From contig NZ_JPNB01000001.1 in NCBI RefSeq assembly GCF_000732725.1, forward strand, positions 496,001-560,000: 64,000 nt of DNA, written 5' to 3'. Both the position numbers and the translations under genes were made by a program. This document shows positions 32,288-48,378 of this stretch, piece after piece (positions within the stretch are counted from its first letter, which is position 1; every line of letters starts with the position of its first letter). Source of the stretch: Kineothrix alysoides (lineage in GTDB: Bacteria > Bacillota > Clostridia > Lachnospirales > Lachnospiraceae). The notes under the pieces were generated by a model. That model made no database searches. It worked only from the letters and a program-made list of their open reading frames with translations, and was not told the origin of the DNA.

Positions 32288-34169
32288 TAGAATTGTAAAA
32301 AAAGGCGTGCTGAAGCGTCTGATTAAAATAATGTTCGAGTTTTATCCGGTCATGCTGCCCATCGTAGTAGTATGCATTATTTTCAATGCAGTAATTTCTT
32401 CCATTCCATCTATATTCATGCAAAATATCATTGCCCTTGTGGAACGTTCCTGGCAAAATGGCGATTGGCAGTCGGTAGCAGGCCGGATTGGCGGTTTTGT
32501 GCTCCTGCTAACAGTCTGTTACATTCTTTCGTTGGCAGCATCTTTTGCCTATAATCGGATGATGGCGGTTATCACTCAGGGCTCTTTGAAAAAGCTGCGT
32601 GTGAAAATGTTCCGCGGAATGCAGGATCTCCCGATTCGTTATTTTGACTCAAATAATCACGGAGATATTATGAGTTACTATACAAACGACATCGATACCC
32701 TTCGTCAGATGATTTCACAAAGTATTCCCCAGCTAATGATGTCCGGCATTGTAGTTACGACTTTGTTTTGCATCATGATGTATTACAGCATTTGGATGAC
32801 GTTTGTGGTTTTGCTTGGCGTAGTCATCATGTATCAGGTTACAAAAAAGGTGGGCGGAGGCTCCGCGAAATATTTCCTGCGCCAGCAGGTGGCGCTCGGT
32901 AGAGTAGAGGGCTTTGTGGAAGAAATAATGAACGGTCAGAAGGTCGTGAAAGTGTTCTGCCATGAGGAGGAAAGCAAGTCGGAATTTGACCGCATCAATG
33001 ATTCGCTTTTTTCGGATGCGGAGCGGGCAAACAAATATGCCAATACACTGGGGCCGATACTGAATAATATCGGAAATATGCTTTATGTAGTAGTAGCTCT
33101 GACGGGAGGCTTTTTCCTACTTGCTAAGGTGCCTAATATGAGCTTTTCCGGATTAGCCTTCAGTATCAGCATTGTTGTTCCTTTCCTGAACATGACCAGA
33201 CAGTTTGCGGGCAATATTAACCAAGTGTCTCAGCAAATTAACGCAGTTGTTATGGGATTGGCGGGAGCCTCCAGAGTTTTTGAGCTGATCGATGAGGAAC
33301 CGGAGCCGGACGAGGGCAGCGTGACTTTGGTAAATGCCAGGGAAGTGGACGGAGAAATCGTAGAATGTGCTGAACGTACAAACATGTGGGCATGGAAATA
33401 CCCCCACGGTGACGGCTCCGTTACGTATACGAAGCTGGCCGGAGATGTGAGAATGGAGGACGTAGACTTTGGCTATGTTCTGGACAAGACGATTCTTCAC
33501 GACATTTCCTTGTATGCGGAGCCGGGGCAGAAGATTGCCTTTGTGGGTGCTACCGGCGCCGGAAAAACAACAATTACGAATTTGATTAATCGTTTTTATG
33601 ATATAGCGGAGGGCGAGATTCATTACGACGGCATAAATATCAATAAGATAAAAAAAGCGGATCTTCGCCACTCCCTCGGTATCGTTTTACAGGATACCAA
33701 TCTGTTTACAGGAACCGTTATGGAAAATATACGGTATGGCAAGCTGGATGCTTCGGACGAAGAATGCAGTGAGGCGGCGAAGCTGGCGGGAGCCCACGAT
33801 TTCATTACCCGTCTGCCCCAAGGCTATGAAACACTTCTTTCCGGCAACGGAGCGAATTTGTCGCAGGGGCAGAGACAGTTGTTAGCTATTGCCAGAGCGG
33901 CCGTAGCGGATCCGCCGGCGATGATTCTGGACGAAGCAACGTCTTCTATTGATACCCGAACGGAGGCTATCGTTCAGCGGGGCATGGATGCTTTGATGAA
34001 GGGGCGTACTGTGTTTGTAATAGCGCACAGACTTTCTACGGTAAAAAATTCCGATGTGATCATGGTGCTGGATCAGGGGAGTATTGCTGAAAGAGGCAGT
34101 CATGAGCAGTTGATTGCGCAGAGAGGTAAATATTATCAGTTGTATACGGGAGCCTTTGAATTGGAATAG
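32277..34169 (+). CDS. ABC exporter half-transporter, catalytic subunit
   Basis: Partner half-transporter of 630 aa with canonical residues: Walker A GATGAGKTT, signature LSQGQRQLLAIARA, Walker B with Glu (MILDEATSSID) and switch His (VIAHRLST). About 55 extra residues between the membrane and ATPase domains (NAREVDGEIVECAERTNMWA region) are longer than in most homologues. The start at 32277 is supported by AGGTGAG and overlaps the first subunit. Substrate of the exporter is unknown; no regulator is adjacent. Confidence 0.92.
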   Translation: MKNNRIVKKGVLKRLIKIMFEFYPVMLPIVVVCIIFNAVISSIPSIFMQNIIALVERSWQNGDWQSVAGRIGGFVLLLTVCYILSLAASFAYNRMMAVITQGSLKKLRVKMFRGMQDLPIRYFDSNNHGDIMSYYTNDIDTLRQMISQSIPQLMMSGIVVTTLFCIMMYYSIWMTFVVLLGVVIMYQVTKKVGGGSAKYFLRQQVALGRVEGFVEEIMNGQKVVKVFCHEEESKSEFDRINDSLFSDAERANKYANTLGPILNNIGNMLYVVVALTGGFFLLAKVPNMSFSGLAFSISIVVPFLNMTRQFAGNINQVSQQINAVVMGLAGASRVFELIDEEPEPDEGSVTLVNAREVDGEIVECAERTNMWAWKYPHGDGSVTYTKLAGDVRMEDVDFGYVLDKTILHDISLYAEPGQKIAFVGATGAGKTTITNLINRFYDIAEGEIHYDGININKIKKADLRHSLGIVLQDTNLFTGTVMENIRYGKLDASDEECSEAAKLAGAHDFITRLPQGYETLLSGNGANLSQGQRQLLAIARAAVADPPAMILDEATSSIDTRTEAIVQRGMDALMKGRTVFVIAHRLSTVKNSDVIMVLDQGSIAERGSHEQLIAQRGKYYQLYTGAFELE

Positions 34170-34208
34170 TGAAAGATAAATTAAGTTTAGGCACAGGAGG
34201 GATAAGAA

Positions 34209-34544
34209 ATGCTGGAACGAAAAGAGGCAATTGTATTTTGCAGTAAACTTAAGAACGTGTACGAGGACTATCCCTTTCACGATCCCAATTGGACGGTAAT
34301 GAGGCATAAGAAAAATAAGAAGGTATTTGCCTGGATATATGAAAAGGACGGGCATATATGGATTAATGTCAAGTGCAGCCCGGAGTGGAGAGACTTCTGG
34401 CGGGGAGCCTTTGAGGCCGTGCTGCCGGGCTATCATCTGAACAAAGAGCACTGGAATTCCATCATACTCAACGGAACGGTGCCCGATAAGGACATTCATC
34501 GGATGATTGAGGAAAGTTATGAGCTTACCCGTGGAAAAGGGTAG
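34209..34544 (+). CDS. MmcQ/YjbR family protein
   Basis: Small protein of 111 aa with the MmcQ/YjbR double-wing-like fold pattern: YPFHDPNWTVMRHKKNKKVF, INVKCSPEW, GAFEAVLPGYHLNKEHWNS and ILNGTVPDKDI. The fold can bind DNA, but the cellular role of the family is not established. AGGAGGGA precedes ATG 34209. It lies 39 bases after the exporter genes and ends before a strong terminator, so it is likely the last gene of that operon. Confidence 0.85.
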   Translation: MLERKEAIVFCSKLKNVYEDYPFHDPNWTVMRHKKNKKVFAWIYEKDGHIWINVKCSPEWRDFWRGAFEAVLPGYHLNKEHWNSIILNGTVPDKDIHRMIEESYELTRGKG

Positions 34545-34623
34545 GAGGACATTTTTCAAATCATATGGTTTCGGTTCGTCCATTATTCACCCATCGGACC
34601 TTCAAAATATTGATTAAAAAAGA

Positions 34624-34666
34624 AGCGGAGATATATTCTATTTTGGAATATATCTCCGCTCCTTTT
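34624..34666 (+). terminator. Terminator after the exporter/YjbR operon
   Basis: Perfect 15-pair stem AGCGGAGATATATTC / GAATATATCTCCGCT, seven-base loop, then CCTTTTG. Strong stem, short T run. Confidence 0.75.
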
Positions 34667-34790
34667 GAATTGCTCCCAACCTGATAAAATGGTACCTTTT
34701 CATTATAAAATCAATGTAATTATCAAAGAATTTAAGAAGTGAAGATACACGCAGGATTGTATTCCATAAAAATGAAAAGGATAAAAGAAC

Positions 34791-36269
34791 ATGAAAAAAG
34801 TAGAAGTAGAAGACTTGCGCTCCGCTCTGGAATTACTTCGTTCCATTCCCGGACAGTTAGTTGAGACAGACGTAGAAGTAGATCCCAACGCTGAATTATC
34901 GGGAGTATACCGCCATGTAGGCGCAGGCGGAACTGTAATGCGTCCGACCCAAGAAGGCCCCGCTATGGTATTTAACAGTATAAAAGGCCACGAAGGAGCC
35001 AAAATAGCCATCGGCGTGCTTTCCAGTCGTAAAAGAGTGGGATACCTGTTAGGCACTGAGCCTGAGAAGTTGGGATTTTTGCTAAAAGACAGCGTATCCC
35101 ATCCAATCAAACCAATAGTAATTGAAAACAGCAAAGCGAAATGTCAGGAGATAGTGCATTATGCGGACGAGGAAGGCTTCGACATCCGCAGGCTGATTCC
35201 GGCTCCCACCAATACGCAGGATGACGCAGGCCCGTACATCACGCTGGGAATGTGTTACGCTTCCAATCCGGAGACCGGAGATTCCGACGTCACCATTCAT
35301 AGAATGTGTTTGCAGTCCAAAGACGAAATATCCATATTCCTCCAACCGGGGGCCCGCCATATCGGATACTTCAGGGAGCTTGCGGAAAAAGAGGGGCGGC
35401 CGCTGCCCATCTCCATAAGCATTGGTGTCGATCCGGCAATCGAAATTGCTTCCTGCTTCGAGCCTCCCACCACTCCTTTGGGCTATGACGAGCTGCAGGC
35501 AGCAGGGGCACTGCGAAATAAGCCCGTGGAATTGGTACAATGTCTGACCATTGACGAAAGGGCGATAGCAAATGCGGAGTATATCATCGAAGGAGAGATA
35601 CTTCCCTATGTAAGAGTAAGAGAGGATCAGAATTCCGGTACCGGAAAAGCCATGCCGGAATTCCCCGGCTACTGCGGGCCGGCAAATCCGAAACTTCCCG
35701 TCATCAAGGTGAAGGCGGTTACCACCCGTAGAGACCCTATTATGCAGACGTGTATCGGCCCCAGCGAGGAGCATGTTTCTATGGCGGGAATTCCTACGGA
35801 GGCAAGTATCCTTTCCATGGTGGAAAAAGCGATGCCGGGAAAATGCCTGAATGTTTACAACGCTTCTTTCGGCGGCGGCAAGTATGTGACAATTATGCAG
35901 TTTAAAAAGACGATGCCGTCGGACGAAGGACGTCAGCGTCAGGCTGCGCTATTGGCTTTTTCTTCATTTGCGGAATTAAAACATGTGATTTTGGTAGATG
36001 AAGACGTGGATATTTTTGATATAAACGATGTGATGTGGGCAATGACCACCAGATTTCAGGCGGATGTGGATTTAATTACGATTCCGGGCGTGCAGTGTCA
36101 TCCCTTAGACCCCTCCAACGGACCGGAATACCATCCTGACATCCGCACAAGAGGAGTGGCATGCAAAGCGATTTTCGATTGCACTGTCCCTTTCGAGCAG
36201 AAAGACCGTTTTGAACGGGCAAAGTTTATGGAAGCGGACCCGAAGCATTGGCTGCCCGATATGTTCTGA
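34791..36269 (+). CDS. UbiD family decarboxylase (hydroxyarylic acid / gallate decarboxylase LpdC-BsdC-like)
   Basis: A 492-residue prenyl-FMN-dependent (de)carboxylase. Seen: RHVGAGGTVMRPTQEGPA near residue 40, the TIGMCYAS/VTIHRMCLQ region with prFMN-contact residues, and EYIIEGEILP with the following acidic residues (UbiD Glu-Arg-Glu region), although the usual EGPFGE is altered to EDQNSGTGKAMPEF. Length matches LpdC/BsdC/AroY-type enzymes. Reaction expected: reversible non-oxidative decarboxylation of a hydroxylated aromatic acid. It needs prFMN from a UbiX, supplied by the fusion gene at 45119. It is convergent with a LysR gene whose end is two bases away. Confidence 0.9.
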   Translation: MKKVEVEDLRSALELLRSIPGQLVETDVEVDPNAELSGVYRHVGAGGTVMRPTQEGPAMVFNSIKGHEGAKIAIGVLSSRKRVGYLLGTEPEKLGFLLKDSVSHPIKPIVIENSKAKCQEIVHYADEEGFDIRRLIPAPTNTQDDAGPYITLGMCYASNPETGDSDVTIHRMCLQSKDEISIFLQPGARHIGYFRELAEKEGRPLPISISIGVDPAIEIASCFEPPTTPLGYDELQAAGALRNKPVELVQCLTIDERAIANAEYIIEGEILPYVRVREDQNSGTGKAMPEFPGYCGPANPKLPVIKVKAVTTRRDPIMQTCIGPSEEHVSMAGIPTEASILSMVEKAMPGKCLNVYNASFGGGKYVTIMQFKKTMPSDEGRQRQAALLAFSSFAELKHVILVDEDVDIFDINDVMWAMTTRFQADVDLITIPGVQCHPLDPSNGPEYHPDIRTRGVACKAIFDCTVPFEQKDRFERAKFMEADPKHWLPDMF

Positions 36270-36271
36270 AT

Positions 36272-37153
36272 TCAAGCCTGCCCTTTTTTGGCGACGAAGT
36301 TCCAGAAGGTACGCGCGAAACCGGATAGCGGTCTATTCTTTATCTTGACCAGACCGATAGTGCTTCTGACCGACTCTTCCAGTGGAATGATGCGGATATT
36401 TTCATTCCGTGCATAGGTCACGGCGTGCCTCATCATAAGGGAAAGTCCTTGATTCTTAGCCACAAGCTCCAATATGTTTTCCATGCGCGTTCCGGTATAT
36501 GTGACATTCGGCGTAAAGCCGCAGTTTTTGCAGGCTTGGAGACTTATATCGTAGAGCAGGGTATTCTTATTTAAGAGCATGAAGTTTTCTCCGGACAATT
36601 CGGATAGGGAGAGTTGTATGCGGTCTGAGAAGGGATGCTCCTTAGATACCACTGCAGCCATCTCATCCTCGAAAATAGGGATAGAGTCAAAGTTCTTATA
36701 CAGTTTCTCAATCCTCATAAAGGCAAAATCGAACGCCTGCTCCTTAAGTCTTGTTAAGATGTCAATTCCTTCCATTTCCGATATCTCCAGCCTGATGTCG
36801 GGATAAGCGTTCTGGAAGTCGGCAATCAAACCGGTAATATTGTAGTGTGCCATCACCGGAATGCTGGCAATGGAGAGAACGCCGTTTGTCCAACCCGATC
36901 GGGCTGCCGCTGACTGGAGCAGATGCTTATAAACGGCCGCGATTTTCTCCGCGTCGGCCAATATCACTTCTCCTTCTTCGGTAAGCCGGATTTTACGGCG
37001 GCTTCGGTCGAAGAGCGAAAGTCCCAGCTCTTTTTCCAAGGAGATAACGTGCTTGGAAACGGATGACTGGGTGGTATATAGATTTTCAGCCGCCTCCGAA
37101 AAGCTTCCCGATTTGGCAACTTCAATAAAATAAAGAATATGATCGATATCCAT
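36272..37153 (-). CDS. LysR family transcriptional regulator
   Basis: A 293-residue LysR protein with N-terminal winged helix (SGSFSEAAENLYTTQSSVSK) and a two-lobe effector domain (GVLSIASIPVMAHYNI onward). ATG 37153 follows AAGGAAACGG. It lies between the UbiD gene (convergent) and the response-regulator gene (divergent). LysR regulators control phenolic acid decarboxylase genes in Bacillus (BsdA) and gallate decarboxylase in lactobacilli, so control of this locus by an aromatic inducer is plausible but inferred. Confidence 0.9.
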   Translation of the reverse strand: MDIDHILYFIEVAKSGSFSEAAENLYTTQSSVSKHVISLEKELGLSLFDRSRRKIRLTEEGEVILADAEKIAAVYKHLLQSAAARSGWTNGVLSIASIPVMAHYNITGLIADFQNAYPDIRLEISEMEGIDILTRLKEQAFDFAFMRIEKLYKNFDSIPIFEDEMAAVVSKEHPFSDRIQLSLSELSGENFMLLNKNTLLYDISLQACKNCGFTPNVTYTGTRMENILELVAKNQGLSLMMRHAVTYARNENIRIIPLEESVRSTIGLVKIKNRPLSGFARTFWNFVAKKGQA

Positions 37154-37320
37154 GATGAATCCGTTTCCTTTGGGCGTATTTAAGTATTCCAATATGGAAT
37201 GATTATAGGGTAACGGGAATTGTTTGTCAAATAGGTATATAGTATCATGAAAATAAAATGGGGAATTTATAATAGTAATGGATAAACTGCAGCAAGGAAA
37301 TCGTATTGAGGGTAAAAAGC

Positions 37321-38934
37321 ATGAGCTATCGAATTATTATTGCAGATGATGAACCAAAAATTATTCAGCTGATCCGCCAGTTGGGGCATTGGGAGGAATT
37401 GGGAATTGAAATTATAGCTGAGTGCCATGACGGCGAACAGGCGCTTCGCTGTATTTTGGAAAAACAGCCGGATTTCGTGCTGTCGGATATCAAGATGCCG
37501 GTGTTCGACGGCATTGAACTAATACAAAAAACGAGAGAGCACGATATGGATACATTGTTCGTCCTGCTTTCCGGATACCGCCATTTCGAGTATGCCCGCA
37601 GTGCCATCCAGCTAAACGTTATGGATTATTTGTTAAAGCCCATTGACGAAAAGCAGTTAAACGAGACACTGGACAAGGTATGCAGGCAGGTAGACCAGCT
37701 AAGGGGGCAGAAGGAAAGCCATCTGCGCCTTTCCCGCTTTGAAACGCAGAAGGGAGAAGAGCAACTTGCAGAGCTGTTCTGGCTGCTGATTGACAGGCAG
37801 CCGGAGGACGTGCGAGAGTTTGAAAAAATGACACCCCGGCAATGTAACGCTGCATATCATACGCAATTCGGTAGGGAATGCTATCAGGTGCTTTGTACCG
37901 TATCCAATCTGAGCGGAATGCTGGAGCAGAAGGATTCGCTTTTCAGCGAAAAGGTAACGGGCTTTATCCAAAGCTGTTTTAAGGATTTGGCGGTGTTCTA
38001 TTACCATGCCACTTTTCAGGGACACATCATCCTTTTGAATTTCAATGAAAAGGATAAAAATGAAGTTAAGGAAGCCGTTTCGGTGCTTTATTATAACATT
38101 CAGGATTTGAGCGAGGCTTATGGCAATTTTCGCTTAAATATCGGTTGCAGCAGCATCAAATATTCCAACAGAGAACTGATAAAAGCCTTTCTGGAAGCCA
38201 ATGCCACGGAATGGGGGAGGCTGATATTTTTGGGAAACAGCGTGATAGAATATGGACAGCTGGAGAAGCTGCCCAGCTTTACTCTTGCAGATTTGATATC
38301 GCCGGAAGAGGAAAGCCAGCTTTTGGACAGCCTGAAATATTTAAGAGAAGAGGAACTTAGCGATTTATTTGCCGAAGTATATAAGCGTGCCGGGAAAGTC
38401 AATAATGCCAATCCGGAAAGTATGAATCGGGCATTTTGGGGGATGTATTCGAAAATCATAAACAGTATATCTTTGGGAACAGAACAGGACCGGTTCCATG
38501 AACGATACTATTATGCTTATCTCGAAGGAAGGAACTTCCAGCAGGTAATGAAGAATTTATATGAGGTTCTGGAAAAGTTTGTAATAGAAGAGCAACAGAA
38601 GCTGAAGGAAAAGCTGGGAAAGCCCCTGGGAGAAGCTGTGAAATTCATAAAAAAGAACTATATGAACCAGATTTCGGCAGAGGATGCGGCAGAGGCAGGA
38701 AATATTTCCACTACATATTTAAGCCGTCTGTTCAAAAGCGAAATGAAAATAGGATTTACCGAATATTTGACGAAAATCCGCATGGAGGAATCCCAGAAGC
38801 TGCTGTCGGAGACGAATTACAGCATCAAGGAGATTGCCGTTATGGTAGGCTATACAGATGAAAAATATTATTCCAAGCTGTTTAAAAAAGGCATGGGAAT
38901 AAAACCGACCGAATATCGCAGGCTGTACGGATAG
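37321..38934 (+). CDS. YesN-like response regulator (REC + AraC HTH)
   Basis: A 537-residue response regulator: receiver domain 1 to about 120 with acidic pocket IADDE, phospho-acceptor Asp56 in VLSDIKMP and Lys in YLLKPIDE; a long helical linker; and a C-terminal AraC double HTH (ISAEDAAEAGNISTTYLSRL, then IKEIAVMVGYTDEKYYSKLF). ATG 37321 is chosen for GAGGG upstream. It pairs with the histidine kinase 12 bases downstream and likely activates the binding-protein/ABC/decarboxylase genes. Confidence 0.9.
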   Translation: MSYRIIIADDEPKIIQLIRQLGHWEELGIEIIAECHDGEQALRCILEKQPDFVLSDIKMPVFDGIELIQKTREHDMDTLFVLLSGYRHFEYARSAIQLNVMDYLLKPIDEKQLNETLDKVCRQVDQLRGQKESHLRLSRFETQKGEEQLAELFWLLIDRQPEDVREFEKMTPRQCNAAYHTQFGRECYQVLCTVSNLSGMLEQKDSLFSEKVTGFIQSCFKDLAVFYYHATFQGHIILLNFNEKDKNEVKEAVSVLYYNIQDLSEAYGNFRLNIGCSSIKYSNRELIKAFLEANATEWGRLIFLGNSVIEYGQLEKLPSFTLADLISPEEESQLLDSLKYLREEELSDLFAEVYKRAGKVNNANPESMNRAFWGMYSKIINSISLGTEQDRFHERYYYAYLEGRNFQQVMKNLYEVLEKFVIEEQQKLKEKLGKPLGEAVKFIKKNYMNQISAEDAAEAGNISTTYLSRLFKSEMKIGFTEYLTKIRMEESQKLLSETNYSIKEIAVMVGYTDEKYYSKLFKKGMGIKPTEYRRLYG

Positions 38935-38946
38935 AGAGGAGAATCC

Positions 38947-39900
38947 ATGAAAAGAAGTATGGCGGTACAGTTTGTGATCATGACACTGAGCATATTGAGC
39001 GTGGTGCTGTTTCTGAACAGAGTCCCTTTTTTTTATATTTTATTTTGTTCGCTTTTGGAGGTAGTACTTCTTGTGTATAACGTATACGAGGCCTTTAAAA
39101 CAAATCAGATGATGGAGTTTTTAGTCAGGGATAATAAACAGAAGATGAAAAAGCAGGTCTCCTGGGATGATGAGGAAGAAGAGAAGCTGAAAATTGTCCG
39201 GAGGAGAGTGGAGGTTTCGGCACTGCAAAGCCAGATCAATCCGCATTTTCTATATAATACGCTGGACAGCATACGCAGCAAAGCACTTTTGGACGGGCAG
39301 ACGGAAATCGGCTCCATGACGGAGATTTTGTCCAAGTTTTTCCGCTACTGTATCAGTAACGATGACGGACTGGTAAAGATAAGGGAAGAGATCAATCATA
39401 TCAAATCCTATTACTATATTCAGAAATATCGGTTTGAAGAGCGAATCCATATGGACTTTTCTGTGGAGGAGGAAGGGATTTACGATTTGTATATCCCTAA
39501 GATGACTCTTCAGCCCTTGGTTGAGAATGCGATGATCCACGGTTTGGAGAGGGTGGCGCAAAATGGAAGGATTCTGATCGAGATTATCAGTACGGAAAAG
39601 AAGGTAATCATTACGATTTCCGACAACGGAATAGGTATGGGTGCCGAGCAGCTGGAGAGGCTGAACCTTAGAATGAAGGGAGAGCTTATAGATGCTGGAA
39701 TGCGCGGCAAAAGGCATAACGGAATAGCCCTTACAAACGTGAATTCCAGAATTAAAATTACCTTCGGGAGGGCCTATGGCATTCATTACCGTTCCATGGA
39801 GGGCAGCGGAACGGATGCGGTAATAACTATCCCCAGAATCGACGAATTCAAGCGGGTGCGATATGAGAAATTGTTGGATGACGATGCACTGGGCTTCTAG
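38947..39900 (+). CDS. YesM/LytS-type histidine kinase without extracytoplasmic sensor domain
   Basis: A 317-residue sensor kinase. Two hydrophobic helices (about 6-23 and 27-48) are separated by only a few residues, so nothing substantial lies outside the cell. A coiled linker (50-90) follows, then the His_kinase motif with His100 in QINPHFLYNTL and the ATPase domain (N-box Asn194 in LQPLVENAMIHG, G-box SDNGIGMG). Typical YesM kinases carry a 200-250-residue extracellular Cache domain that is absent here. The stimulus must therefore come through the membrane helices or a partner protein. Cotranscribed with the regulator and a pseudo-ATPase. Confidence 0.9.
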   Translation: MKRSMAVQFVIMTLSILSVVLFLNRVPFFYILFCSLLEVVLLVYNVYEAFKTNQMMEFLVRDNKQKMKKQVSWDDEEEEKLKIVRRRVEVSALQSQINPHFLYNTLDSIRSKALLDGQTEIGSMTEILSKFFRYCISNDDGLVKIREEINHIKSYYYIQKYRFEERIHMDFSVEEEGIYDLYIPKMTLQPLVENAMIHGLERVAQNGRILIEIISTEKKVIITISDNGIGMGAEQLERLNLRMKGELIDAGMRGKRHNGIALTNVNSRIKITFGRAYGIHYRSMEGSGTDAVITIPRIDEFKRVRYEKLLDDDALGF

Positions 39901-39939
39901 CCCTTTTAAGCGTCAGAGTAAGAAAGGGGCAGCTTATCT

Positions 39940-41292
39940 ATGAGAGAATTGCTTCGAATCGCATATGGCACTCAGGATACGGATAAGAGCTACCGGCTCA
40001 GAGATTACAATATGGAAGTGTATGCGGGAGAGATTCTATATATTCAGGGATTGGCGGGGAGCGGCATCAAGGGTTTGCTGGAGCTGCTTCAGGGAGGCCG
40101 GCGGCTGACTGGCGGACAGATGTATATCGACGAGGAGCTGGTTACGGATTATGCCAAGGAGACGAAGGAAAAGTATGGGATATACACGATTACATCCGAC
40201 GAGGATTTGGTTACGGACATGACGGTAGCCGAGAATCTGGAGGTGGTCAGATATCATCCACTGTCCATGAAGCTGTATAGAAAGAGGCGGACTGACGAAG
40301 CCGTAGCAAATTTTCTGCGGGAGGAGAAGATAGGAATTTCTCCCGATACGGTGTTGAACCGGTTGGACAGTGATACCCTTCCCAAGCTCAGCATGCTGAA
40401 AGCAAAAATGCACGGAGCGAGGCTTATCGTTCTGGACCTTATGGAGGACAACTACGGAGGCAGAAATGCGGAGGAAATACGCAGAATGATACAAAAGCTC
40501 AGGGAGGAAGGAACCTCCTTCCTACTTCTATCCGAGCGTTACTCCATGTTTGCGGAAATGGCAGACCGCATTCAGCTCATTCATCAGGGCAGAGATTTGA
40601 TGGAATGGCACAGAATCGATGACGGGGTGCGCAATTATTTAAAGAGCGCTAAGATACATGGTTACGCGCCAAACGAGAAAGGCGGTTACGATTTTATAGG
40701 ATTTTTTGACTATGAATGGAAAACAGAAATTTCGATTTGGGATTATTTAGAAAGATTTCAACGGGAGAACCCTTTATTATTCGATGAAATAATAGATGGA
40801 TGCCTTCCTGAAAAGGGCAAAGGAACGAGAGATAAGACGGTAGTGATTCCGAGGGAGAGCTCGGAGCAGCTGGTAGGGAAGCTGAGCATCAGTGACAATA
40901 TTATTCTGACAATTCCAGATAGAATCGGCAAAGGGCATTTAGGCTGTATTTCCCTAAAGCTGAAGAAGAGCATCACAGATGTGTTTTACCGCAAAATCGG
41001 TATTCCCGACAGCTTTGATCAGGTGAAGCAGCTAAGCCGTGTGCAGAGAAAAATATTGTCCGTATACCGGTATGAAATTGCAAGACCGAAGGTCATTTTG
41101 TTCGAAAATCCTTATTGGGGAATGGATGTAGAGGAGATCATGCAGTTTCGAAGCTATGTGGAAGATCTTTCCGAAAAGGGGATTAGGGTTATCTTTTTCT
41201 CCAAGGCGCTGGACGAATTGGAATATGACTGCGGCAGGATTTTTCTTAGGAAGGAAGGGGGATATTGGGAAGAACTGACGAGGGAGGGATAA
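39940..41292 (+). CDS. Degenerate tandem ABC ATPase-like protein (pseudo-RbsA)
   Basis: A 450-residue protein with the overall plan of a CUT2 ATPase (two cassettes) but without the residues for ATP hydrolysis. The first P-loop is GLAGSGIKG (about 37-45) where GENGAGKST is expected, so the Lys is lost. The first signature is replaced by LPKLSMLKAKMHGA and the first Walker B by LIVLDLMEDN. In the second cassette LSGGNQQKV becomes LSRVQRKILS and DEPTRGVDVG becomes FENPYWGMDVE. The ORF is intact, has AGAAAGGGG upstream and sits between the kinase and the real importer. A regulatory or adaptor role is inferred. Confidence 0.8.
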   Translation: MRELLRIAYGTQDTDKSYRLRDYNMEVYAGEILYIQGLAGSGIKGLLELLQGGRRLTGGQMYIDEELVTDYAKETKEKYGIYTITSDEDLVTDMTVAENLEVVRYHPLSMKLYRKRRTDEAVANFLREEKIGISPDTVLNRLDSDTLPKLSMLKAKMHGARLIVLDLMEDNYGGRNAEEIRRMIQKLREEGTSFLLLSERYSMFAEMADRIQLIHQGRDLMEWHRIDDGVRNYLKSAKIHGYAPNEKGGYDFIGFFDYEWKTEISIWDYLERFQRENPLLFDEIIDGCLPEKGKGTRDKTVVIPRESSEQLVGKLSISDNIILTIPDRIGKGHLGCISLKLKKSITDVFYRKIGIPDSFDQVKQLSRVQRKILSVYRYEIARPKVILFENPYWGMDVEEIMQFRSYVEDLSEKGIRVIFFSKALDELEYDCGRIFLRKEGGYWEELTREG

Positions 41293-41394
41293 AAATCTCC
41301 TCCTTTTTGCAGAAATTTCCACCCCGGATAAGAGAGGGCCTTTGCTACAATAACAGTGTCAGGAAACTATACATATTAAAGGAGGATATTCTTT

Positions 41395-42471
41395 ATGAAA
41401 AAGAAGATTTTGGCAGCATTATTGACAACAACATTAGCTGTAACGGCCTTAGCAGGCTGCGGACAGAGCGCGACGGCCGAGGTCCCCGCAGCGGAGACAA
41501 CACAGGCTCCTGCGCAGGAAGAAGCACAGGCCGCAGCAGAAGAAACGGCGGCGGATGCTGCTGCAGAGAGCGGGGCGGTAGCGTTAGCGGGCATGACCAT
41601 CGGATATTGCATGCCGGATACTTCCGAAAGCTTTTTATCTTGGCTGTCCAACAGCGTAAAGGACCTTGCGGCAGCGGACGGAGTGACGGTTGACATCGCG
41701 GATGCGGCAGGAAGCGCTACGACGCAGATCAGCCAGATTGAAAACTTCGCGGCTTCAGGCACGGATCTCATTATCGTTATGGCGGTAGAGCCTACGGGAG
41801 TGACCGATGCTATTGAAAGAGCGCAGGCAGCAGGCTCCATGGTGATGGTGGCAGGCGGTGATACGGGAGCCTATGACGCGATTATGTTTACCGACCAGTA
41901 TGAAGATGGAACGATGATGGCGGAAATGGGAGCGGCCTGGGTCGAGGCTACTTTCCCCGATGCGGAACCGGGAAGTATTGAAATCGCTCTTTTAGAGGAC
42001 AGAAGCACGCCGGAAGCCAATAGCAGATGTGACGGTATGAATACGATTACAGATATCTGTGATAAGGTTACGATCGTGCAGACCGTAGGAAGCATTAAAA
42101 CAAACGATGCTGCACAGGCGGCTATGGAAAATATCATGCAGACCAACCCAGAGATCAAGCTGGTGCTCAGCTATAACTCCGGCGGTGCAATGGGCGTTAA
42201 CGAATTTGCTACCAGAGCTGGTTCTCCGGTAAAGGATGCCTCTCAGTTCGCAGTATTCGCCTCCGACCTCGATGAAGCTTCTATCGCAGCTATCGCTCAA
42301 TCCGGCGATAACAGCTCCGTATTTCGCGGACTGATCAAGTTCGGTAGCGATGACCTTCCGGGAGATACTTATAACTTGGCGAAGAAAATACTGTTAAATG
42401 AGACATATGAGGTTGAAAATCCAGATCCGTTAACGAAGATTACCATCGATAACGTTGCAGACTATCAATAA
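41395..42471 (+). CDS. CUT2-type ABC transporter substrate-binding lipoprotein
   Basis: A 358-residue lipoprotein: signal peptide with lipobox LAGC (Cys22), then an Ala/Glu/Thr-rich linker to about residue 63, then a periplasmic-binding-protein-like domain (MTIGYCMPDTSESFLSWL onward). AAAGGAGG precedes ATG 41395. Followed by the ATPase and permease of the same importer. By family it would bind a sugar or sugar-like ligand; the decarboxylase and esterase neighbours suggest an aryl glycoside, ester or similar conjugate (inference). Confidence 0.9.
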   Translation: MKKKILAALLTTTLAVTALAGCGQSATAEVPAAETTQAPAQEEAQAAAEETAADAAAESGAVALAGMTIGYCMPDTSESFLSWLSNSVKDLAAADGVTVDIADAAGSATTQISQIENFAASGTDLIIVMAVEPTGVTDAIERAQAAGSMVMVAGGDTGAYDAIMFTDQYEDGTMMAEMGAAWVEATFPDAEPGSIEIALLEDRSTPEANSRCDGMNTITDICDKVTIVQTVGSIKTNDAAQAAMENIMQTNPEIKLVLSYNSGGAMGVNEFATRAGSPVKDASQFAVFASDLDEASIAAIAQSGDNSSVFRGLIKFGSDDLPGDTYNLAKKILLNETYEVENPDPLTKITIDNVADYQ

Positions 42472-42549
42472 ATTATTACTTTATATCCATTTTAATAAAA
42501 GGAGGCTGTAGCGAATACGCCGCGGCCTCTTTTAGAAAAGAGGAATAAT

Positions 42550-44025
42550 ATGGAACCAATCCTTACACTTAAAAATATTACGAAATTGTACCCCGGCGTC
42601 AGGGCACTGGACGATTTTTCCATCGAATTCAAGCCGGGAGAGATACATGCGTTACTAGGAGAAAACGGTGCGGGTAAATCCACCCTGATAAAAGTAATCT
42701 CAGGGGCGATTGAGCCCACTGCCGGAGAAATTGTCTATAAAAATAAAACGTATAGCAGAATGACTCCTAAGATTTCCAGAGATAACGGGATCGAAGTCAT
42801 TTATCAGGAATTTAATCTGGTGGATACGCTGTCTGCGGCTGAGAATATCTGCATGGGTGACAGGTTCGGCAGATTTGTGGACTTTAAGAAAATGGAAAAA
42901 ATAGCTGCCGATATTTTTAAGCAGTTTAAGATAGATATCAATCCCAAAGCCTTGGTCGAGGGGATGACACCGGCACATAAGCAGATTGTGGAAATTTCAA
43001 AGGCGATTTCCAAAAAGTGTGAGCTGCTTATTATGGACGAGCCCAGCGCGCCTCTTACCGTAAAAGAAGTGGAGTGCATGTTCGACATCATAGAAGTGCT
43101 GAAGAAAAAGGGAATTACCATCATTTACATATCTCACCGCATGGATGAGATATTCCGTATTGCGGACAGAGTTACCGTGATGCGCGACGGGACCTTTGTA
43201 AAAACGTTATTAACAAAAGAGACCAATCGCGATGAGCTGATCAGCCTGATGGTCGGACGGGAGCTCAGCTCCGATTATCCGAAGCCGAAAAAGCATTATG
43301 ACGAAGAGATTCTGCGTCTGGAGCATATTTACGGTAATGGAGACAGCAATATTTCTTTTTCCTTAAGAAAAGGGGAAATCCTGGGCCTTGCCGGTTTGGT
43401 GGGAGCGGGAAGGACGGAGCTTGCCAGACTGATTTACGGAGCAGATAGAATGGATTCGGGAAAAATCTATCTGGAAGGGAAGGAAATAAAAATCAAATCC
43501 ACCTCCGATGCTATTCACTACGGAATTGGACTGATACCGGAGGATAGGAAGAATCAAGGCTGTTTTCTGGAGCAGAGCATAGAGTGGAATATTGCTTTTA
43601 ATAATATTCGAAGATTTTCTAAGAGCGGAATCGTCAATCAGAAGCAAACAGAAGAGGCAGCGAAGAAATATGGGGAAGCGATGAGCATCAAAACGCCCTC
43701 TTACGTGCAGGATGTAAAGAACTTATCCGGCGGTAACCAGCAAAAGGTCGTTATTGCAAAGACTTTGGCGGCAAATTCCAGAATTATTATTTTCGACGAG
43801 CCGACTAGAGGAATAGACGTGGGAGCAAAGCAGGAAATCTATGAGCTGATGTGTGCCCTGGCAGACGAAGGAATCGGCATTATCATGATTTCTTCCGATA
43901 TGGAGGAGCTGCTTGGAATGTCGCAGCGGATTATCGTGCTTGCAGAGGGAAAAAAGGCGGGCGAGCTTGAGAAAGAGGAATTCAGCCAGACTGCTGTTTT
44001 GAAATATGCATCGAGCTGTGGATGA
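42550..44025 (+). CDS. CUT2-type ABC transporter ATP-binding protein
   Basis: A 491-residue duplicated ATPase with intact first cassette: Walker A GENGAGKST (37-45), Q-loop VIYQEFNLVD, signature-like MTPAHKQIVEISKA, Walker B LLIMDEPSAPL and switch YISHRMDE. The second cassette has GLVGAGRTE, LSGGNQQKVVIAK and FDEPTRGIDVGA. This catalytically competent protein contrasts with the degenerate homologue at 39940. GAGG before ATG 42550. Its end reaches past the in-frame upstream part of the permease ORF. Confidence 0.92.
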   Translation: MEPILTLKNITKLYPGVRALDDFSIEFKPGEIHALLGENGAGKSTLIKVISGAIEPTAGEIVYKNKTYSRMTPKISRDNGIEVIYQEFNLVDTLSAAENICMGDRFGRFVDFKKMEKIAADIFKQFKIDINPKALVEGMTPAHKQIVEISKAISKKCELLIMDEPSAPLTVKEVECMFDIIEVLKKKGITIIYISHRMDEIFRIADRVTVMRDGTFVKTLLTKETNRDELISLMVGRELSSDYPKPKKHYDEEILRLEHIYGNGDSNISFSLRKGEILGLAGLVGAGRTELARLIYGADRMDSGKIYLEGKEIKIKSTSDAIHYGIGLIPEDRKNQGCFLEQSIEWNIAFNNIRRFSKSGIVNQKQTEEAAKKYGEAMSIKTPSYVQDVKNLSGGNQQKVVIAKTLAANSRIIIFDEPTRGIDVGAKQEIYELMCALADEGIGIIMISSDMEELLGMSQRIIVLAEGKKAGELEKEEFSQTAVLKYASSCG

Positions 44026-44089
44026 AAATAAACAGATGCAAATAATAGAAAATGAAAAGTGTCTGCAAGGCGGACTGATAGGAGTTCAA

Positions 44090-45061
44090 ATGAAAGAGAA
44101 AGTAATTAAAATATTAAAAAAATATACCATCATATTGGTACTGATTGGATTGATCTTATTTTTTTCCATTATCAATCCGGTATTCTTCTCCTTAACCAAC
44201 TTTACGAATATTTTCGTACAGCAGTCCTACGTGATTATTGCGGCAATCGGCCTTGCGTTCGTCATGATAAGCGGCGGCATGGATTTGTCCGTAGGATATC
44301 AGATGTCTTTGGTCGGAGTCATTACGGCGGTAAGCATGATGTGGCTGAATCTTCCGGTTCTCTTTTCGGTATTAATAGGGCTTGCGATGGGAGTTCTTTT
44401 AGGCATAATCAATGGCGTGGCGGCAGTAAAGCTGAAGGTGCATCCTTTGATCATTACACTGGGTACGATGACAATTTTTCAAGGTACTTCTTATATTATT
44501 TCCAATTCCAACCCTATTTTCGGATTGCCCGACAGCTTCAAATTCTTAGGACAAGGCTATGTGGGGCCTATTCCCTTCAGCGTTATCGCAATGGTCATCG
44601 TCGCTTTTTTTGCCAGCTTCGTGCTGAATAAAACTTATTTCGGACGCTACGTATATGCACTTGGAAGCAATGAAGAGGCGGCACATCTTGCCGGTGTGAA
44701 TACGAAAAAAATCAAAATATGCGTATTTATGATTTGTGGGTTCTTCGTAGCGCTTTCTGCCATCATTCTTGTCGGACGCGCAGGCTCTGCAACTTCCGCT
44801 ACCGGCGTAGGTACGGAATTCACGTGCATGACAGCGGCAGTTTTGGGAGGAATCAGCTTCAAGGGCGGCAGCGGTAAGGTATGGGGCGTTATTACCGGCG
44901 TACTGATTCTCGGAGTTTTGTCCAGCGGCATGCAGATTATCGGACTGGGGACCTATCCGCAGTATATCGCGAAGGGCATCGTGCTTCTCGCGGCAGTTGG
45001 ATTCGATAATTATCAGAAGAACACTAAAATCAAGAAAACCGAGAAAGCGGTGGAGGCGTAA
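44090..45061 (+). CDS. CUT2-type ABC transporter permease
   Basis: A 323-residue membrane subunit with about nine helices and family motifs MISGGMDLSVGYQMSL near residue 65 and AAVLGGISFKGGSGKVWG near residue 260. Start ATG 44090 is preferred because TAGGAG lies just before it and the 28 residues upstream in frame are hydrophilic and unlike the family. It completes the importer encoded from 41395. The next gene, the UbiX-LpdD fusion, starts 57 bases later, tying transport to decarboxylation. Confidence 0.9.
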   Translation: MKEKVIKILKKYTIILVLIGLILFFSIINPVFFSLTNFTNIFVQQSYVIIAAIGLAFVMISGGMDLSVGYQMSLVGVITAVSMMWLNLPVLFSVLIGLAMGVLLGIINGVAAVKLKVHPLIITLGTMTIFQGTSYIISNSNPIFGLPDSFKFLGQGYVGPIPFSVIAMVIVAFFASFVLNKTYFGRYVYALGSNEEAAHLAGVNTKKIKICVFMICGFFVALSAIILVGRAGSATSATGVGTEFTCMTAAVLGGISFKGGSGKVWGVITGVLILGVLSSGMQIIGLGTYPQYIAKGIVLLAAVGFDNYQKNTKIKKTEKAVEA

Positions 45062-45118
45062 GACAAACTATTCCATTAGTTATAGGTTGACGGGCAGGAG
45101 AAAGAGTGTGATATTTAT

Positions 45119-46132
45119 ATGAAAAGAAGAATCGTTATTGGTATGAGCGGCGCTTCCGGCGCTCCGCTTACCATAGAGCTATTGAAACAGCTTCAAAAAT
45201 ATAAGGAGAGTCTGGAGGTTCACCTGATTGTGACGAAAGGGGCGGAAATGACCCTTTCGCAAGAGACGGGGGCTACCTTGGATGAGCTTGGGCATCTGGC
45301 GACGGTAGTCCATGACAACCGCAATGTCGGTGCAGGCCCGGCCAGCGGAAGCTTTCAAACCATCGGCATGATCGTGATACCGTGCAGCGTAAAAACCTTG
45401 GCAGGAATTGTCAGCGGATATAGCGATAACCTTCTATTGCGTGCAGCAGACGTCACCTTGAAGGAGAGAAGAAGTCTCGTTCTGGTAGTGAGGGAATGCC
45501 CCCTCGGAACGATTCACCTGCGAAACATGCTGGAAGCGAGCAGGCTGGGTGCGGTGGTGATTCCTCCGGTATTGAGCTACTATAACCACCCTGAGACAGT
45601 AGAAGACTGCAATCGCCATGTCATAGGAAAAGTGCTGGACCAGTTCGGCTTAGAGGGTGAGGGCTACAAGCGTTGGGCAGGCATGGAAGACATGGGTGAG
45701 GAGAAAAGGAGCAAGGATATAAGCTTTAGAATCGTACATAACCTTATGGGCAGGGATATATCGGCGAAGGTGACCGTCCTTGCTCATGGGATGTCCGTGC
45801 TGCTGACGGGAGGAGAGGTGCCTCACGTGGGGGCTGTATCTCTTGCAGACGAAGCGGGGCAGATAAGAACCATCGGTCTGGATGGGCATAAAGAGCAAGT
45901 CGTAGGGGAACGCTGGGCCGGGGAATTGTACCGGATAAAAAAAGAACCTGTCAGCGTGACTGCGGGTATTCACTACGACAAGCTGACCAAAGAGCAGATA
46001 GAGTATGTGGTAAATGAGATGAATGAGATGCTGGAAGAGGTAAAAAGCATACTGCTGAAGCATCAGTCCGACCTCGGAGGGAGTTGCCTCGAACGAGATT
46101 ATACAATGGAAAGGGGTGTCATTCAAATATGA
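45119..46132 (+). CDS. UbiX-like flavin prenyltransferase fused to an LpdD-like domain
   Basis: A 337-residue two-domain protein. Residues 1 to about 180 are UbiX-like: FMN/phosphate loop GMSGASGAP, IPCSVKTLAGIVSGYSDNLL, LKERRSLVLVVRECPLGTIH and the conserved VIPPVLSYYNHPET. UbiX makes prenyl-FMN from FMN and dimethylallyl phosphate. Residues about 198-320 (VLLTGGEVPHVGAVSL, DGHKEQVV, VSVTAGIHYDKLT) match the LpdD family, described as a chaperone-like partner of gallate decarboxylase. Usually these are separate genes (lpdB, lpdD). The usual UbiD partner is encoded 9 kb away at 34791. It overlaps the esterase gene by ATGA. Confidence 0.85.
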   Translation: MKRRIVIGMSGASGAPLTIELLKQLQKYKESLEVHLIVTKGAEMTLSQETGATLDELGHLATVVHDNRNVGAGPASGSFQTIGMIVIPCSVKTLAGIVSGYSDNLLLRAADVTLKERRSLVLVVRECPLGTIHLRNMLEASRLGAVVIPPVLSYYNHPETVEDCNRHVIGKVLDQFGLEGEGYKRWAGMEDMGEEKRSKDISFRIVHNLMGRDISAKVTVLAHGMSVLLTGGEVPHVGAVSLADEAGQIRTIGLDGHKEQVVGERWAGELYRIKKEPVSVTAGIHYDKLTKEQIEYVVNEMNEMLEEVKSILLKHQSDLGGSCLERDYTMERGVIQI

Positions 46133-47199
46133 AAAAATATAGTGATGAAACAGTAATGAAAATGATGGGACAAACGCAAAGCGTTTTTGTACACGGCGTA
46201 TCGGTGGAGCTGAAGTGTGCGGAGGATGGGAATGGACCGGGAACCATTGACCCTAGAATACTTGAGCAGATGAAAGAACGGCGGTCCTCTGTGGCAGAAG
46301 AGGGTGAGCCGCCTATTGCAGTTATGCGTAAAAGGATGATTGGAACGAATTACAATCAGAATACATTTCCGATTTGTACAAAATATTTGGAAATAGATAC
46401 CACCTGTGGAAAGGTTCCGGGGTGGATGTACTATCCGGTGAGAATGGAGGGAAAACGCCCTTGCTTTATGTACGTGCATGGAGGCGCATTTTTCGGCGGA
46501 AGCGTAATTACGGTAGAAAACGGCTGCCGGTTACTGGCGGAACGGTCGAATTCGATAGTATGCAACATCGATTACAGCCTTCCCCCCGAGACACCTTATC
46601 CGGTTCCGACGACCCAGATCTACGAGTCATTAAACTATTTGAGCAGTCATGCCTCTTTTTATCAAATCGATGAGAAGAATATCTTCATTGGAGGAGACAG
46701 TGCGGGCGGCAATATGTCGGCGGCAGTAACGCAGATGGATAGAGACAGAAATACGGGACTACTAAAGGGAGAGGTGCTGATTTATCCGAAATTGATATTC
46801 GCCAACGATTTGCTGGAGGGATATGAAAGAAATCTTAACGTATTCGAGCTGGTAGAAGAGGAACGGTCATACTTGGAGGAGTTAACAGGTATTGGTTCCG
46901 ATGAATCCAATGAAAGAGATGCGGCCTTTTATGTGCAGGGACAGTATGATTTGAAAAACCCTTATATTAGTCCGATGCTTGGAAAAAAAGAAGGTCTCCC
47001 AAAGACGCTGATGATTCAGGCGGAATATGACGGTCTTCGTTTAGAGGGAGAATATTATGCAAAATTGCTGAAGGAATCAGGCGTACCGGTCAGAATGATT
47101 CGCTACTGTAATGTAAGTCACGGATTTGTAGATCAAATTGGGCTTCTCCCGCAGGCAGAAGCCGCAATCAATGAAATAGCAGCATTTATAAATGAATAA
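46129..47199 (+). CDS. HSL-family alpha/beta hydrolase (esterase)
   Basis: A 356-residue esterase of the hormone-sensitive-lipase/BD-FAE type. Oxyanion motif HGGAFFGGS, nucleophile GGDSAGGNMSAAV, acid in AEYDGLRLEGE and catalytic His in SHGFVDQIG. No signal peptide, so it acts on an imported substrate. ATG 46129 overlaps the stop of the UbiX-LpdD gene (ATGA) and follows GAAAGGGG, so translation is coupled. A role in releasing an aromatic acid from an ester before decarboxylation fits the context but is not shown. Confidence 0.88.
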   Translation: MKKYSDETVMKMMGQTQSVFVHGVSVELKCAEDGNGPGTIDPRILEQMKERRSSVAEEGEPPIAVMRKRMIGTNYNQNTFPICTKYLEIDTTCGKVPGWMYYPVRMEGKRPCFMYVHGGAFFGGSVITVENGCRLLAERSNSIVCNIDYSLPPETPYPVPTTQIYESLNYLSSHASFYQIDEKNIFIGGDSAGGNMSAAVTQMDRDRNTGLLKGEVLIYPKLIFANDLLEGYERNLNVFELVEEERSYLEELTGIGSDESNERDAAFYVQGQYDLKNPYISPMLGKKEGLPKTLMIQAEYDGLRLEGEYYAKLLKESGVPVRMIRYCNVSHGFVDQIGLLPQAEAAINEIAAFINE

Positions 47200-47234
47200 C
47201 CGGGGTTTGTAACAGAAAGAGGAAGAGGAAACAA

Positions 47235-48056
47235 ATGGTTACATTTAAAACAGAAAAAGTATCGCCTTATGTAACGAGAATTTTTGGAATCAATACAGAA
47301 TTAATGTATTTGGTAGAAGGCGCGAAAAAAGCGGCACTGCTAGACACCGGAAGTGGCTTTGGGAGCTTAAAAAAGACGGTGGAACAATTGAGTCAAAAGC
47401 CCGTCATCGTGCTTTTGACTCATGGGCATACGGACCATGCTATGGGTGCGGGGGAATTTGACGAAGTGTATATGAATCATACTGACGATTATATTTTCGG
47501 ACCACATGGGGATAAGGCTTTTCGATGGCAGGGTATGGAAATGTCACCTGACTTTTCGCTGCTAGATGAGGCGGATTATATCGAGACCGCCGATGCAGCA
47601 AGCTTTCATGACATGAAAGGCGGAGATTGCTTCGACTTGGGGGGCGTGCACATCGACATATTCGACTGCCCGGGGCATACCTCCGGCTCTGTGGTCATGC
47701 TGATTCGGGAAGAAAGGATGCTGCTGACAGGGGACGCCTGCAATTCTTTTACCTTCGCTTTTGAGGAGTATTCTCTGCCAATCGGAGAATATGAAGAGAA
47801 CCTGAAAAAAATGAAGAGTGAGACTGACGGCAAGTATGAGCGCATTTTGCTGTCCCACGGAGACGGCAATGCTCCCATCGATATAATCGCGGGTGTGATT
47901 CAGGTGTGTGAAGATATTAAGTCTGGGAATGTGGATGACGTTCCCTTCGAGTTTAAGGGTACATCGGGTTATATAGCTAAAGAAATGAAGATTCCTGAAA
48001 TGCTTCGAGCAGACGGAGGACATGGGAATATTGTGTATAATAAGGGGAAGATTTGA
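47235..48056 (+). CDS. Metallo-beta-lactamase-fold hydrolase
   Basis: A 273-residue MBL-fold protein with the binuclear metal motif LLTHGHTDHAMG, further ligands His in CPGHTSGSVVM, Asp in LLTGDACNS and His in LLSHGDGNAP. Resembles glyoxalase-II/lactonase-like hydrolases; a lactone or thioester substrate is possible. GAAAGAGGAAGAGG precedes ATG 47235. Last gene of the decarboxylase-transport locus, followed by a hairpin at 48146. Confidence 0.85.
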   Translation: MVTFKTEKVSPYVTRIFGINTELMYLVEGAKKAALLDTGSGFGSLKKTVEQLSQKPVIVLLTHGHTDHAMGAGEFDEVYMNHTDDYIFGPHGDKAFRWQGMEMSPDFSLLDEADYIETADAASFHDMKGGDCFDLGGVHIDIFDCPGHTSGSVVMLIREERMLLTGDACNSFTFAFEEYSLPIGEYEENLKKMKSETDGKYERILLSHGDGNAPIDIIAGVIQVCEDIKSGNVDDVPFEFKGTSGYIAKEMKIPEMLRADGGHGNIVYNKGKI

Positions 48057-48145
48057 GGTTATTATTTTGAGGTAAATGCGTATACAGTTTTCTTTTCGTA
48101 TGGATCCGGTATCAGAATAAAATCAATTTCAGAAAGCCCAAGAAA

Positions 48146-48170
48146 ATCGGAGGCCATCATAGCCTCCGAT
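48146..48170 (+). terminator. Hairpin after the MBL gene
   Basis: Perfect nine-pair stem ATCGGAGGC / GCCTCCGAT with a seven-base loop; followed by AAATTATTT rather than a clean T run. Confidence 0.6.
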
Positions 48171-48258
48171 AAATTATTTACAATCATAAGAAGAATCCTG
48201 CACTCCTTTTAGGAATTTCACATTTCCTTCCATCCAAAATCAGTTTATGAAACCATAG

Positions 48259-48378
48259 TATGATGTTATAATACTTAGAAAGTACAACGGCAATCGTATT
48301 TTGCCTGCAGCAAGAATTATCGGTGCTGCGAATACGGTAATCAACAAAGGGAGGAAGAAACCGGAAGATTTGCTGTAA
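48259..48378 (+). pseudogene. Possible shikimate dehydrogenase (AroE) remnant
   Basis: A 39-codon open stretch without a start codon ending in TAA. It reads PAARIIGAANTVINKG, which resembles the IGAxNTV motif of AroE-type dehydrogenases; nothing else of such a gene is present. It may be chance, so confidence is low. Otherwise the 48171-48413 gap holds no recognised feature. Confidence 0.25.

Follow-up and report, generated by a model that had tools for sequence, protein, structure and literature searches.

A putative module for the uptake, cleavage and decarboxylation of a galloyl-type ester in Kineothrix alysoides

Introduction

In Lactiplantibacillus plantarum, according to the available part of PMC4600210, the genes induced by gallate include those for tannase, for LpdB, LpdC and LpdD, and for lp_2943, an ion transporter that is the proposed carrier of gallate. 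LpdD is described in the available part of PMC10865409 as a chaperone that binds the reduced form (prFMNH2) of prenylated flavin mononucleotide (prFMN) and aids the activation of UbiD. A tannase and a sugar ATP-binding cassette (ABC) transporter are mentioned in the available part of PMC3102119, in separate regions. Here, we describe a locus in a 64,000-nucleotide stretch of K. alysoides DNA (assembly GCF_000732725.1, contig NZ_JPNB01000001.1, positions 496,001 to 560,000 of the forward strand; referred to as the window), in which a UbiD decarboxylase occurs together with a UbiX-LpdD fusion, an esterase of the HSL family and a CUT2-type ABC importer.

The island that holds these genes probably enables the cell to use esters in which a small sugar-like carrier bears a galloyl- or dihydroxybenzoyl-type group, a reading to which we assign a probability of about 0.6. 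This supports an earlier, sequence-only reading of the same DNA, in which import, intracellular cleavage and decarboxylation of an aryl ester or glycoside were proposed, and makes it more specific: the ester is supported by the importer runs with tannase or BD-FAE genes in other genomes, whereas the glycoside is the weaker option, no glycosidase being found among the island genes. The decarboxylation and esterase scheme is of a known kind; what appears to be new is the combination of a CUT2 importer, an HSL esterase and a fused UbiX-LpdD. In the open-access literature, represented mostly by titles and the openings of abstracts, no such combination was found, in line with the earlier reading, nor was any account of an importer that takes up galloylated sugars in the family Lachnospiraceae.

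Results

The UbiD decarboxylase and the UbiX-LpdD fusion

The UbiD gene (34791..36269, plus strand) codes for a protein with three UbiD domains (PF01977, PF20695 and PF20696) and an AroY-like sequence over its full length, as in the AroY/LpdC group of UbiD-type hydroxyarylic acid decarboxylases. The AroY structures 5ny5, 5o3n and 5o3m in the Protein Data Bank (PDB) are matched with 640-668 bits from residue 5 or 6 to residue 492, and the next entry after AroY scores 228 bits. The AroY residues E289, H327, K363 and H436, which we take to be active-site positions, are kept as E290, H328, K364 and H437. The protein is the sole PF01977 match of its genome, and it scores below the NCBIfam cut-offs of TIGR00148 (221.4 of 244.85) and of VdcC (470.6 of 650), and is therefore not VdcC itself. 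Together with the tree described below, this homology argues strongly for a protocatechuate/gallate-type enzyme, which would presumably work in the direction of decarboxylation.

The cofactor proteins are encoded by a single unbroken reading frame (45119..46132, plus strand), in which a UbiX flavin prenyltransferase continues in frame into an LpdD prFMN-chaperone domain (PAC_bac/LpdD). The UbiX half is above the curated cut-offs of PRK06029 (236.4 versus 188) and TIGR00421 (206.9 versus 108.9). The LpdD half matches PF21758 with 86 bits and the LpdD entries 8p4w, 8pzh and 8po5 of the PDB with E values of 4-5e-8; by this structure-entry match the domain would be a prFMNH2 chaperone. The fusion protein is matched in 41 of 299 genomes of the family, and none of the other matches among these covers both halves without a stop; in G198, the nearest candidate by frame length, direct reading shows one stop between the halves. 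The available text of PMC10865409 does not contain the word 'fused', and its one instance of 'fusion' belongs to the name of a cloning kit. Within the genus, UbiX is matched in two of the 16 genomes, the window's own and G299. The UbiX of G299 is 41-43% identical to that of the window and adjoins a distant UbiD (26%); this pair (L056:7235-12917) lies between AKR and ABC-exporter genes, beside an NMT1-type ABC importer. Since G299 carries its own UbiX and UbiD there, the two genomes have different UbiD sets in this region of the chromosome.

Related gene runs in other genomes

A search of the gene order across Lachnospiraceae, as the sequence-only reading had suggested, shows that a CUT2 importer, UbiD and an esterase are linked in other genera as well, and the linkage is therefore more than an accident of the window genome. 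When the substrate-binding lipoprotein (SBP) of the importer is sought in 397 genomes of the family, scoring at most five candidates in each and taking E<=1e-40 as a match, it is found in nine. Most genomes contributed five scored candidates to this search and three to a second one. In four of these nine (the window's genome, G208, G184 and G264), a UbiD gene lies on the same contig within ~7 kb; UbiD itself is found at E<=1e-100 in 43 of the 397.

The run of G208, on one strand and with tight spacing, is SBP-ATPase-permease-BD-FAE-UbiD-UbiX-LpdD. Its SBP, ATPase and permease are 73, 74 and 77% identical to those of the window (68% for the SBP when aligned end to end), its UbiD, UbiX and LpdD are 69, 62 and 35% identical, and its esterase is a BD-FAE (PF20434, 200 bits). 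The order in G264 is response regulator (RR), histidine kinase (HK), degenerate ATPase, SBP, ATPase, permease, UbiD, UbiX, LpdD and tannase, the first nine being 46, 52, 31, 33, 53, 44, 80, 47 and 31% identical to their window counterparts and the tannase matching the L. plantarum tannase structures with ~470 bits. The run of G184 is GH3-UbiD-UbiX-LpdD-tannase-RR-HK-degenerate ATPase-SBP-ATPase-permease, with a tannase of 463 bits. After this pattern had been seen, a fifth locus, that of G415, came to light in a search with only the regulator, and it carries the whole run from RR to tannase, as in G264, so that the pattern held in this check.

The esterase in these importer-UbiD clusters is a tannase in three relatives (L057, L042 and L108/L109) and a BD-FAE in one (L040). 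The importer is also seen with an esterase gene and without UbiD at E<=1e-100: the run of G165 (L076) is SBP-ATPase-permease-tannase, and that of G149 (L097/L101) is RR-HK-degenerate ATPase-SBP-ATPase-permease followed by genes for a metallo-beta-lactamase-fold (MBL) hydrolase, a DUF6198 protein and a PF00135 carboxylesterase, with GH3 upstream. A cluster of this kind has a GH3 gene as its neighbour in G184 and in G149. Other importers occur as well: in G194 (L038:4428-10630), the genes for EIIBC of a sugar phosphotransferase system (PTS), tannase, PTS EIIA, UbiD, UbiX and LpdD form one run, and in G107 (L088:6660-16493), UbiD-UbiX-LpdD-tannase lies beside an oligopeptide-type ABC importer. 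The importers vary between genomes; the esterase-decarboxylase pair recurs. A CUT2-like ATPase gene on the UbiD strand is present in the fetched stretch of seven of 46 distinct UbiD loci (L042 included; the duplicates L071 and L073 left out), which is a raw count and not an enrichment, and four of the seven (L045, L060, L062 and L080) fall outside the window's importer groups.

In the UbiD tree (49 frames, also used as the motif set below; the UbiD of G048, on a 3-kb contig, was left out), the window groups with G264, G291, G130 and G169 (100/100). In G264, UbiD shares its run with a tannase gene; in G130, the two are ~5 kb apart, and in G291, the tannase gene adjoins a UbiX fragment at the end of a contig. 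No tannase was found in G169. In 80 chosen genomes, tannase is found at E<=1e-100 in 12 of 43 with UbiD versus none of 36 without (Fisher p 3e-4), these controls being the first genomes without UbiD, of which some are incomplete and two (G046 and G375) share a genus; the eightieth genome is G149, where the tannase match is in pieces. In G130, a UbiD genome outside the 12, the match is in pieces of one 614-residue frame. Partial hits of lower significance (E 1e-24 to 1e-30) were obtained in UbiD genomes and also in G029, one of the controls.

The RR tree places the window with G264 and G184 (100/99), G149 being next. In the tree of the CUT2 ATPase, the window and G208 form one group (100/99), and G264, G184 and the tannase-linked G165 are elsewhere (95/93), with G149 and then an unlinked copy of G208 next to them. 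The two importer groups may have arisen separately, may share an origin that was followed by losses, or may owe their pattern to parts having been exchanged.

It is very improbable that a decarboxylase unit and a sugar importer are neighbours here by accident, having merely landed together. An accident would fit the UbiX-LpdD protein, which at this similarity is present only in the window's genome among the 16 of the genus, as well as the UbiD gene, which is a separate unit, and the figures for CUT2 genes near UbiD, which are raw counts. Against this, the order is conserved in several genera, G415 included, the UbiX-LpdD gene lies inside the importer run and a shared palindrome (see below) is found at both units.

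The CUT2 importer and the esterase

The importer genes, all on the plus strand, code for an RbsB-type SBP (41395..42471; PF13407), an ATPase with two ABC domains (42550..44025; PF00005 in two stretches, AraG/RbsA-like but below the NCBIfam cut-offs) and a BPD_transp_2 permease (44006..45061; PF02653), which is the composition of a CUT2 importer. They are preceded by the gene of a degenerate RbsA-like ATPase (39940..41292, plus strand; PF00005, 40.6 bits), which has a homologue at the same position in L042, L057, L097 and L108 and which the sequence-only reading had missed, its inventory being right for the genes it listed. When the AlphaFold model of the SBP (mean predicted local distance difference test score, pLDDT, 83.4) is compared with known structures using Foldseek, the closest are ribose-, sugar- and galactofuranose-binding proteins; this predicted fold would suit a sugar-like carrier without identifying it. 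A paralogous set of two-component system, degenerate ATPase and CUT2 genes is present on contig 2 of the window's own genome (L099:9383-16420), without a UbiD match in that stretch.

The HSL-family esterase gene (46129..47199, plus strand) starts in an ATGA overlap with the stop of the UbiX-LpdD gene. The protein matches carboxylesterases and belongs to PF07859 (163 bits; GDSAGG, HGG, D and H motifs present), not to the tannases, and it begins without an evident signal peptide, as judged by eye. No tannase is found in the window genome at E<=1e-20; the HSL esterase stands in the island where the relatives have tannase or BD-FAE, so that the proposed cleavage step is drawn by analogy.

It is possible, but unlikely, that the cargo of the importer is a plain sugar, released extracellularly, and that UbiD only detoxifies the acid released alongside, both being induced by plant material. 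The sugar-binding fold agrees with this, as do the several genomes in which an importer of similar layout has no UbiD in its vicinity. However, the tannases of G264 and G184, like the window HSL esterase, have no evident signal peptide (by eye), for which reason cleavage should be intracellular, and neither a sugar kinase nor a sugar isomerase was found among the island genes. The importer could instead take up the free phenolic acid, gallate or protocatechuate, the esterase acting on something else, and this we consider improbable. Free gallate uptake followed by decarboxylation is the L. plantarum scheme in the available part of PMC4600210, and the decarboxylase is the best-supported part of the island; on the other hand, the nearest SBP structures bind sugars, an ATP-driven importer would lose the energy gain of antiport, and related importers adjoin a tannase or another esterase without a strong UbiD match (G165 and G149). 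The uptake of a whole ester is the reading that is followed below.

The regulators and the shared palindrome

A LysR-type regulator (PF00126, PF03466) is encoded at 36272..37192 on the minus strand, with its probable start at ATG 37153, the family models beginning at residue 14. It is likely to be cognate to UbiD, as a homologue of 50% identity is convergent with UbiD in L044 and one of 43-44% is divergent from it in L069. The two-component system is formed by an RR with an AraC output domain (37306..38934, plus strand; PF00072 and PF12833) and a YesM-type HK (38947..39900, plus strand; PF06580 and PF02518).

Candidate LysR operators are ATTCTATTTTGGAAT upstream of UbiD (34635..34649), inside a 17-pair hairpin at 34624-34660, and ATTCCAATATGGAAT (37186..37200) between the probable LysR start and the RR gene. 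The latter 15-mer is found, identical, upstream of UbiD in L077 and L086. The putative -35 and -10 elements of the LysR gene at 37230-37202 agree with the consensus at 12 of 12 positions, in a pattern scan that found 21 sites versus 24.2 expected. The exact pattern ATTCY-N5-GGAAT has four hits in the window, counting both strands, at three places (34635, 37186 and 378, the last inside an unrelated reading frame), where 0.65 are expected and three of 100 shuffles reach four; with one mismatch allowed, the palindrome is no better than chance (five found versus 4.5 expected).

The looser form ATTCN7GAAT precedes UbiD in 13 of 49 cases including the window (p 5e-8) and in 12 of 48 excluding it (p 3e-7), with 23 of 711 other upstream regions as control, and the strict form ATTCC-N5-GGAAT, which the window's own UbiD site does not have, precedes nine of the 48 other UbiDs versus six of 711 controls (p 3e-8). 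These counts are non-independent draws because the UbiDs are related, and they are not blind because L044, L058 and L069 had been inspected before the full count; for the controls, frames of 150+ residues were picked mechanically in the fetched loci and the regions upstream of them were taken, and some of these loci overlap. The looser motif is found before UbiD in eight of 11 loci that have a window-like LysR gene within 300 bp (<=300 bp) and in four of 37 others (p 2e-4). This statistical recurrence of the site is consistent with a LysR protein that acts via a shared palindrome at both units, its binding being predicted.

Extent of the island and neighbouring features

All genes named in the sequence-only reading are present in the places given to them, as judged from matches to domain and family profiles. 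They are adjacent, as had been said, but rather than being packed into one group they form two units: the lone UbiD gene (plus strand), ~9 kb from UbiX and tail-to-tail with the LysR gene (minus strand), and a run of nine plus-strand genes at 37306-48056, for RR, HK, degenerate ATPase, SBP, ATPase, permease, UbiX-LpdD, HSL esterase and MBL hydrolase. The intergenic gaps in this run are -20 to 102 bases, and it would be transcribed as one or two units. A terminator-like hairpin 3' of the run (48146..48170, plus strand) comes from a scan that found 15 versus 12.0 expected in shuffles.

When the window is compared by blastn with L056 of G299, in the same genus, the flanks are adjacent in G299 and the island (34168..48306) is missing there, 267 unmatched bases standing in place of the ~14.1-kb segment. 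The long flank alignments are 88-91% identical, the left one ending at 34167, whereas the right edge at 48307 is defined by a piece of 50 bases that is 86% identical. The island was either gained in the window genome or lost in G299; its G+C content is 46%, that of the flanks 44% and 43%.

The MBL hydrolase gene (47235..48056, plus strand) codes for a PF00753 protein with the THGHTDH motif and further metal-ligand motifs, and a homologue (54%) is encoded directly 3' of the related CUT2 permease in L097 of G149. The idea that it is a dihydrophloroglucinol cyclohydrolase was dropped because the available part of PMC10470551 places that enzyme in the 'cyclase' family; the window genome has one PF04199 match, away from the island. 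A small YjbR-like protein (34209..34544, plus strand; PF04237, 105 bits) is encoded inside the island, without a known link to the pathway.

An NMT1-type ABC importer adjoins the island (48414-50951, with its SBP gene on the opposite strand) and is common to G299 (90-94% protein identity). A second CUT2 sugar locus of the window (10959-18732) codes for a LacI regulator, SBP, ATPase and permease, together with two xylose-isomerase-like barrels and a GFO/IDH/MocA oxidoreductase, and a ZMP/ZTP riboswitch is matched at 53903-53981 with 54 bits.

Discussion

In the proposed mechanism, the lipoprotein would bind the ester and the CUT2 importer would take it up, as suggested by the recurrence with tannase and other esterases and by the sugar-binding fold. 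The HSL esterase would then free the phenolic acid in the cytoplasm, since the clusters of the relatives hold a tannase or BD-FAE. The AroY-type UbiD would turn the acid into pyrogallol or catechol, a step for which homology argues strongly; UbiX would supply the prFMN and the fused LpdD domain would pass it on, consistent with the role of LpdD in the available part of PMC10865409. The carrier would enter central metabolism, and the phenol would probably leave the cell, because the window genome has no PF00384 match, the molybdopterin oxidoreductase family of the Mo-dependent transhydroxylase in the pyrogallol-phloroglucinol route. The LysR protein would couple UbiD to the run of importer, UbiX and esterase genes via the shared palindrome, and the two-component system may supply a further signal.

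Several observations weigh against this reading. The SBP shares no more than 28-32% identity with its counterparts in G264, G184 and G165, because of which the cargo may differ, and it is closer (37%) to the SBP of L064, which has no UbiD nearby; to our knowledge, no ligand has been described for any of these SBPs. The arrangement of two-component system, degenerate ATPase and CUT2 genes is a generic importer layout, as it is seen without a UbiD match in the fetched stretch in L064, L066, L067, L099 and L100 (and in part in L065, which has neither further CUT2 ATPase and permease matches nor a UbiD match in its fetched stretch), and G149 has importer, MBL hydrolase and carboxylesterase but no UbiD at E<=1e-100. 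The clusters linked to UbiD or tannase fall in two separate groups of the importer tree. The regulator at E<=1e-110 is in two of 37 genomes of the genus of G264 (G264 and G415) and the SBP at E<=1e-90 in one of five of the genus of G208; relatives of the HSL esterase (E<=1e-50, 34-36% identity) are rare, being in three of 299 genomes, its own included, and UbiX-LpdD has its single occurrence in the genus in the window. The motif is absent before UbiD in the importer-linked relatives G264, G184:C39 and G208, and the co-regulation of UbiD with the importer run is something that we infer. Moreover, L. plantarum is thought to move free gallate via an ion transporter, according to the available part of PMC4600210.

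A wider reading is that the family has built, in two branches of the importer tree, systems that take up tannin-derived galloyl esters whole instead of the free acid. Their parts would be sugar-type CUT2 importers (replaced by a sugar PTS in one genome), intracellular esterases that can stand in for one another and a prFMN decarboxylase, the locus in the window being a compact form with a fused UbiX-LpdD, an HSL esterase of new specificity and control by LysR and a two-component system; this we put forward tentatively, at somewhat under an even chance. If the proposed module is real, the binding protein would be a direct handle on bacteria that compete for tannin-derived esters, the locus would be a marker for the formation of pyrogallol or catechol, and the UbiX-LpdD fusion would be a natural test of cofactor hand-over.

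The closest described system remains that of L. plantarum (TanB, LpdC, LpdB, LpdD and lp_2943; available parts of PMC4600210 and PMC10865409), with which the window shares the set of a gallate-type UbiD, UbiX and LpdD and a scheme in which ester cleavage feeds decarboxylation, the tannase of the window's relatives being of the same family as TanB. In L. plantarum, however, lpdC lies apart from lpdB-lpdD and an ion transporter is credited with taking up free gallate, whereas the window has a CUT2 ABC importer, an HSL esterase in place of a tannase, a fused UbiX-LpdD and a two-component system. The AroY protocatechuate decarboxylase (5ny5, 5o3n and 5o3m) resembles the window UbiD in sequence over its full length and in its active-site positions. 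Finally, the layout of SBP, double ATPase, permease, degenerate ATPase, kinase and regulator is that of CUT2/RbsABC-type sugar importers with a YesM/AraC-type two-component system, from which the importer of the window differs by its linkage to an esterase and a prFMN decarboxylase.

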